From NCBI RefSeq assembly GCF_021533835.1, contig NZ_JAKFYQ010000002.1:372001-436000 (forward strand): a DNA stretch of 64,000 bases, written 5' to 3'. Positions 35,699 to 36,637 of this stretch are shown here, one piece after another; position 1 is the first letter of the stretch; every line of letters begins with the position of its first letter. The notes under the pieces are model-generated. The model worked only from the letters and a program-made list of their open reading frames with translations, searched no databases and was not told the DNA's origin. This DNA comes from Synechococcus sp. Nb3U1 (GTDB taxonomy: Bacteria; Cyanobacteriota; Cyanobacteriia; Thermostichales; Thermostichaceae). The translations under genes and the position numbers were made by a program.

Positions 35699-36040
35699 TT
35701 ATTCCTCCCCAAATATTTGAGTCATCTGTTCCTTAAATTTTTGCAATATTCTTAGTTCTTGCTCATCGGTTGACTCGCGGCAAATCATTGCTTTAAGCAA
35801 CCCTTCAGCATGGAACCTATCCCTTCTTGCCAAAACCTTTTGCCATAGTTTCTCTATCCGCTCTGGCTCTGACGGTAAAATTATCATCAAATCTAATCCA
35901 ATGGCATCTCTTAAAAAGAGTCACTTGAAACTGTCCTCAGGAGAACCATTCTCTTTCAAAAGATTCAGAATCGATAATATCTCCTCTGCAACTTTTATAC
36001 ACCCTTGGCATAAACCAAGGATAATTTTCTCTATTTTCAT
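35699..36040 (-). pseudogene. AT-rich gene interrupted by one in-frame TGA
   Basis: A 39-codon open frame (start ATG 36040, stop TGA at 35921-35923) and a 63-residue frame (ending at 35699) lie in the same reading frame, joined by sequence that continues to read LFLRDAIGLDL. Together they make about 113 codons with one internal TGA. The N-terminal part is MKIEKIILGLCQGCIKVAEE, the C-terminal part contains RRDRFHAEGLLKAM and a helical QELRILQKFKEQMTQIF. No family is recognised. The DNA is much more AT-rich than its neighbours, suggesting recent acquisition. A real pair of small genes is the alternative. Confidence 0.5.
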
Positions 36041-36305
36041 TTTTTTTACCCCATCCCCTAAAATAAATTTGACAACCTCCAATTATTTACTGAATAAGTA
36101 AATAATTGAAACTTAGGGATCCCTGTCAAAAGGGATCCCATCCAAAAATTAGAGATCAGACGCAGGATCCTTGATCTGAATGATTAAATAACAGCCGACC
36201 TACCACCCGTAGAGATAGGGATCCCCTGTAGAAGGATAGCGCTGGGGATCCCGTCTTTCAATTGCTGTTGCCATTCAAAATCACATTCACAGTCAATGGA
36301 ATCCG
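36041..36305. other. Spacer rich in GGATCC palindromes
   Basis: No gene seen. At least five GGATCC copies lie within about 150 bases (for example near 36118, 36132, 36166, 36219 and 36246), more than in adjacent coding DNA. Confidence 0.5.
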
Positions 36306-36530
36306 CTATTTCCCCTGCTGCTCAGTAGCTTGGCGCAGTTCACTGGCCATTTCCATGAACTCTCGAGGATTGCCCGCAGTGCCATAGGAAGCGCGGTCTT
36401 GCACCTTCTTGCCGCTGCCTTGACGAGTGCGGATATTCAACAGGGAACTGGCCATTTCCATGAACTTAGCAGGATTTCCCTCACTGCTGGCCCGCATTGA
36501 GGAGCCCCGTCCGCCACGAGTGATTGCCAT
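36306..36530 (-). CDS. Small protein with duplicated GNPxxFMEMAS motif
   Basis: The 74-residue product contains GNPAKFMEMASSLL at residues about 18-31 and GNPREFMEMASELR at about 53-66, an internal duplication of 14 residues. The segments are separated by a basic Ser/Gly/Arg linker, and the N-terminus is Arg/Gly-rich (MAITRGGRGSSMR). I know no named family with this motif. The ATG has a moderate GGGG ribosome site about five bases upstream. It lies alone between the AT-rich patch and a polyamine-type permease. A structural or nucleic-acid-binding small protein is possible but nothing is shown. Confidence 0.6.
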   Translation of the reverse strand: MAITRGGRGSSMRASSEGNPAKFMEMASSLLNIRTRQGSGKKVQDRASYGTAGNPREFMEMASELRQATEQQGK

Positions 36531-36637
36531 AAATACCCCAATTCTCAGAAATGAAATGCTTGTTCATATCTTCCCACAAGGGATCCGGGATCAACCAGGC
36601 CCAATGCTGCATCTTGTGAAGCGGCTTCGAGGTGGGG

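Follow-up and report, generated by a model that had tools for sequence, protein, structure and literature searches.

What is encoded by a small cyanobacterial ORF in which the motif GNPxxFMEMASxL occurs twice, and what could such a protein do? The ORF in question lies in a stretch of 64,000 nucleotides from Synechococcus sp. Nb3U1, analysed as a whole and here called the window. It was pointed out in an earlier note that gave no strand; we place it on the minus strand, the plus strand over the same interval giving a different reading that contains a stop. The features on which the argument depends are as follows, in window coordinates:

36306..36530, minus strand: ORF of the double-motif protein, 74 residues, with its stop codon at 36306-36308; supported by conservation within the family and by dN/dS.
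36438..36479, minus strand: motif copy 1, GNPAKFMEMASSLL, residues 18-31; putative docking element, largely overlapped by a predicted helix at residues 20-37 (weak AF2 model).
36333..36374, minus strand: motif copy 2, GNPREFMEMASELR, residues 53-66; putative docking element, largely overlapped by a predicted helix at residues 55-73 (weak AF2 model).
36408..36422, minus strand: QGSGK, the conserved part of the basic linker, residues 37-41; Q37, G38, G40 and K41 are invariant in all eight family members.
36531..36610, minus strand: leader of about 80 nucleotides (5' UTR, perhaps promoter) including AACAAGCATTTC; 47 of 80 columns are invariant among six members of the genus.

The duplication described in the earlier note is real. 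The best internal 14-mer match of the 74-residue protein scores 51, a value reached by none of 2000 shuffles (maximum 35), and the two copies are identical at 10 of 14 positions, the second ending 8 residues before the C-terminus. Its description of the linker as basic was also borne out, the calculated pI of the protein being 10.5, with both linker and N-terminus basic. Two helices lying on the motifs are predicted by AF2, in a model of low confidence (mean pLDDT 61, pTM 0.26).

Homologues, which the note had proposed to seek in relatives, were found at full length in all eight genomes searched of a family that we take to be the Thermostichaceae, a lineage that we presume to be early-branching and associated with hot springs. 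Six of these genomes (that of Nb3U1 included) represent the genus and two represent other genera; identity to the window protein is 43-93% among the other seven members and 43-46% in the two from other genera. Within the genus, the six members compared in pairs give dN/dS values of 0.03 to 0.19 (15 pairs), indicating purifying selection. Because homologues are present throughout the family genomes searched and are under purifying selection in the genus, we regard the ORF, as judged from these comparisons, as a true gene rather than a reading frame open by chance. Variation in copy number, a further proposal of the note, did not emerge: every one of the eight members has two copies, and these are spaced by 35 residues in each, even at the 43-46% identity of the other genera. 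Copy 1 is slightly degraded in three of the eight, with GSP in L003, Y for F in L007 and GNT in L008. Across 388 cyanobacterial genomes, matches with E <= 0.01 occurred in 12, comprising the eight family members, three genomes whose matches contain an in-frame stop, and G109, where the match is a different small protein having one motif in common. Weak matches in G002, G003, G004, G008, G138 and G268 were set aside on account of in-frame stops, and the motif is absent from the other weak matches of the family search (L009-L023 and L027-L029).

The surroundings of the gene had been described as an AT-rich patch and a lone permease, a setting that proves uninformative. The gene upstream, as read by eye, is an ABC permease in four of the six genus members and cysC-like in the other two (L003 and L006), while an ndhH-like gene, also read by eye, lies downstream in the two other genera (L038 and L039). 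A functional link to the permease or to other neighbours was rejected, since the context changes within the genus, and phycobilisome genes do not adjoin the gene. The leader is far more constant than its own upstream flank, where only 6 of 87 columns are invariant in the six genus members; the invariant AACAAGCATTTC precedes the start codon, and a 21-nucleotide leader block, AACAAGCATTTCATTTCTGAG, is unique in the genome even when up to 3 mismatches are allowed. No Rfam match was obtained in the leader region up to E = 1, and no consensus promoter was found within 36531-36610. Because the gene keeps its leader whichever gene lies upstream, the two form a unit of their own, and the permease says nothing about function. 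The AT-rich patch itself (35699-36082) contains two small minus-strand frames of 63 and 53 residues, possibly the remains of a single decayed gene; neither has a Pfam match above cut-off. As a further observation on the window as a whole, GGGATCCC occurs 81 times, against about 1.5 expected from base composition, and is a lineage-specific HIP-like repeat; GCGATCGC, presumably HIP1, the usual cyanobacterial octamer, occurs 0 times.

Searches with the protein as a whole gave little direction. Pfam contains no family that matches it up to E = 10, NblA included, and no significant relative of the whole protein, or of its family profile, was found in the PDB. The top NCBIfam match of the window protein is GrpE (PRK14141.1; E = 0.019, with 14.5 bits where the cut-off stands at 192), which recurs in four of the eight family members with a best E of 0.0036; GrpE homology was rejected, the score lying far under the cut-off. 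Below it stands CpcG4, at E = 0.14 and in two of the eight members, and this weak match was the first lead to phycobilisome linkers. Viral contigs yielded no relative and a plasmid search one unconvincing match (E = 1), so that an origin from phage or plasmid is not supported. The literature string FMEMAS returned 0 papers. In the titles, abstract beginnings and passages retrieved on ApcG, ApcI, Sll1911, CpcG FxxM and Thermostichus linkers we saw no description of the double-motif protein, while the likeness between ApcG/ApcI-type proteins and the CpcG tail may already be published.

To pursue the motif itself, a strict DNA pattern for GNPxxF[ILM]xMA (any NAN codon at position 8) was built from the double-motif protein and three small proteins of other genomes (L032, L040 and L041), before any of the CpcG sites was known, and was run on the 388 genomes with the reversed pattern as control. 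It returned 27 sites in 22 genomes, against 0 for the control. On translation, 11 sites belong to the double-motif protein (in the six genus genomes) and 3 to the small proteins; the other 13, each from a different genome, lie in the C-terminal tail of CpcG, the frame being truncated at a contig edge in one case. As those three were known before the pattern was made, the new information lies in the 13 CpcG tails; the pattern is blind to TTR leucine codons and to GEP and GDP forms, so that its 13 CpcG hits among the 380 genomes that lie outside the family are not to be read as the frequency of the motif in CpcG. A looser pattern, GxPxxFxxMA, was run on 10 genomes and gave 33 sites, of which 13 represent the double-motif family, 7 represent CpcG (the six genus genomes and G010) and 13 represent neither; the reversed pattern gave 9. 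Among these last 13, eight look unrelated by translation, two have a stop inside the motif and three are without a locus. In the Nb3U1 genome the looser pattern marks five sites: the two repeats, the CpcG tail, one that is chance-like and one left untranslated.

The earlier note had known of no family with this motif, a statement that no longer holds: GxPxxFxxMA is the motif of the CpcG C-terminal tail in a number of cyanobacteria, Nb3U1 among them, where it reads GEPENFLNMARML. The Nb3U1 CpcG was named from its four best NCBIfam matches, all to CpcG models and under their cut-offs, together with PF00427. The tail of all six genus genomes conforms to G[DE]PENFLNMARML, and the window motif shares 6 of 14 positions with the tail of its own CpcG. 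Among solved structures, the CpcG of 7sc7 carries the tail motif TAGNPMNFLGMARSINP, whereas a CpcG4 in 7eyd has GDPRKFADLA (FADLA) at the corresponding place, so that the motif is not universal in CpcG. According to part of one report, the core-binding portion of CpcG is its C-terminal extension (PMC8448738), and this is where the shared motif G[N/D/E]PxxF[L/M]xMAxx[L/I] stands. The architectures differ: CpcG has one copy following an N-terminal REP domain (PF00427) seated in the rod, whereas the window protein carries the motif twice and lacks a REP domain, none of the six PF00427 matches in its genome falling at the double-motif gene. One additional frame in this genome, L077 (G000:C1:1442309-1442686; 176 residues), consists of little beyond a single REP domain (PF00427), and is separate from CpcG, the CpcC-like frame and ApcE.

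Does so short a likeness reflect common function? The window protein carries GxPxxFxxMA twice, and this is a short motif alone, CpcG being missed by a profile restricted to the repeats (A3), which recovers only the protein itself from its own genome at E <= 10. Against the PDB the same profile finds nothing significant, CpcJ ranking fourth at E = 1.6 behind unrelated proteins. Such weak statistics, the 13 of 33 looser-pattern sites that stay unexplained beside 9 for the reversed control, and the unrelated neighbouring genes speak for a rival reading, in which a short amphipathic helix has converged on the CpcG form in a protein acting outside the phycobilisome. We consider this decidedly unlikely: every strict-pattern site outside the family, across all the genomes searched, is either a CpcG tail or one of the previously known small proteins, which adjoin a quencher gene, and the control is empty.

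Two linkers of Anthocerotibacter panamensis that attach hexamers to the core, CpcJ and CpcN, have tandem FLxMA motifs ahead of located REP domains. CpcJ (531 residues, two REP matches) has FLDMAREL at 271 and FLNMAKDL at 291, its best REP match following at 351-471; a part of PMC10696076 assigns to its inter-domain linker the attachment of hexamers to the D/D' APC cylinders. CpcN, the chain-core linker (1182 residues, five REP matches), has FLEMARDL, FLDMAR and FLDMAREL at about 8, 48 and 65, before a first REP match at 126. Set beside them, the window protein resembles the attaching arm alone. The whole-chain E-values of CpcJ and CpcN in the PDB search with motif profile A2 (8.6e-5 and 2.3e-4) are sums of weak stretches, the best single stretches reaching 0.48 and 3.5, and the CpcG matches of this profile are circular, as it contained three CpcG tails.

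The F-x-x-M-A ending also recurs in the small core linkers of the ApcG/ApcI type, which we take to be Sll1873 (ApcG) and Sll1911 (ApcI) and which end in F[RK]xMAxx[LI]. With the Sll1911 N-terminal peptide given in PMC13339759 as a starting point, we collected a family that we take to be of this type, and obtained matches in 39 of 59 genomes, the match in G023 covering the N-terminal part only. All 17 loci read, namely the 12 best matches (of which the query profile already contained two) and 5 others, end in F[RK]xMA; of 12 loci from a pattern search, 5 were members. No PDB chain was matched by an ApcG-type query. One may ask whether the double-motif protein is itself an adaptor of this kind, with one motif or both holding the core and the basic N-terminus attached to a photosystem or to the membrane, so as to direct the transfer of energy. 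The common ending and the basic N-terminus and linker would suit such a role, and paper titles link ApcG with PSII and ApcI with red-light harvesting. Yet ApcG/ApcI-type proteins have one motif and a GLFGLF-type N-terminus, whereas the window protein has two FxxMAxxL motifs and is missing both the GLF-type segment and the FFLDxDxAKSxGxxEYMR block, and the role needs no second motif. Moreover, the genome already encodes an ApcG/ApcI-type gene of its own at G000:C3:8396-8728 (profile A4, E = 1.5e-25; the same profile misses the double-motif gene), on which ground a replacement of ApcG/ApcI by the double-motif protein was rejected. We therefore hold the adaptor reading to be rather unlikely.

The remaining carriers of the motif are the three small proteins from which the strict pattern was partly built, found in three genomes of one other family:

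L032 (frame 1495-1854), L040 (1492-1785) and L041 (frame 1258-1581): small proteins ending in GNPEDFL[EK]MAK, encoded divergently from a gene for an OCP N-terminal domain.

These proteins of 97-107 residues are small, like the window protein, and end in a similar motif; unlike it, they have a single C-terminal copy after an acidic-looking N-terminal part. The two that were tested have no Pfam match up to E = 1. At all three loci the divergent neighbour encodes an OCP N-terminal domain of HCP or quencher type (Pfam Carot_N, E 3e-56 to 1e-55). Binding of OCP to core APC is described in PMC12059629, the title of which speaks of such domains quenching phycobilisomes; the small protein is possibly a core-docking partner of the quencher. 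Within the genus, an OCP-type gene (G000:C3:278438-278887) is patchily distributed, being present in G000, G005 and G006 and not found in G001-G004 (G007 left out). Taken as groups, the proteins with a clear motif are phycobilisome linkers, are of the ApcG/ApcI type, or adjoin a phycobilisome-quencher gene.

On this footing we propose, as a moderately probable reading of the sequence comparisons, that the double-motif protein serves in the phycobilisome core as a small linker standing on its own, with each motif docking on APC and the pair probably bridging two sites. Each GNPxxFMEMAxxL copy would form a short helix with a GNP cap, and this helix would dock on the APC core at the kind of site taken by the C-terminal tail of CpcG; held at fixed spacing by a basic linker with its conserved QGSGK, the two helices would act as a bivalent clamp over two neighbouring docking sites. 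Bridging of neighbouring sites is the most likely arrangement because, apart from a basic N-terminus and linker, the protein consists only of the two putative docking helices, whose spacing is fixed. The clamp could then hold APC trimers or cylinders to one another like a staple, or it could plug docking sites against rods and so limit rod number. These elements differ in strength: docking of the motif on the core is supported by comparison with several phycobilisome linkers that carry it, binding of the core by the double-motif protein itself is what we infer from that likeness, and the stapling of the core or plugging of CpcG sites is suggested more weakly still. The earlier note had expected a new small regulator or structural protein, and it is the structural half of this that fares well, the protein being conserved, without a Pfam family, and carrying a motif that points to the phycobilisome scaffold; no sign was found of a role as regulator of gene expression.

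A regulatory role of another kind can be imagined, in which a protein resembling NblA in function docks on the core and recruits a protease or other factor for the dismantling or regulation of phycobilisomes. A small, basic, bivalent protein might serve such an end, and a conserved leader of its own is what a separately regulated gene would be expected to have; against this, neither NblA nor any other Pfam family is matched, and apart from QGSGK there is no further recognisable segment for binding a partner. We regard this as highly improbable and return to the stand-alone core linker.

The Nb3U1 genome contains a single CpcG and a single apcE-like frame, the latter with three REP domains, which makes it plausible that few kinds of rod linker attach to its core. 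For Thermostichus strains, PMC10053587 reports a single cpcG, either one or two copies of apcE, and three repeat domains in ApcE, and suggests a small bicylindrical core. A broader proposal, possible but considerably more doubtful than the linker assignment, is that FxxMAxxL is a portable core-docking tag shared by rod linkers, by linkers that direct energy to photosystems and by small proteins associated with quenchers, and that the minimal bivalent clamp of this lineage competes with CpcG and sets the number of rods per core.

The motif, then, is not a new one, since it stands in the tail of CpcG, and the double-motif protein is probably a previously unnamed core linker made of two such motifs and little else. 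If so, the phycobilisome of this lineage, presumably an early-branching one from hot springs, would gain a further small component, and the protein would point to a simple docking code on the APC core, with rod linkers, ApcG/ApcI-type proteins and quencher-associated proteins competing for the sites of one motif. It would become a testable question how the number of rods, coupling to photosystems and quenching are balanced at shared sites, and the motif pattern would offer a means of finding phycobilisome proteins that have escaped annotation.
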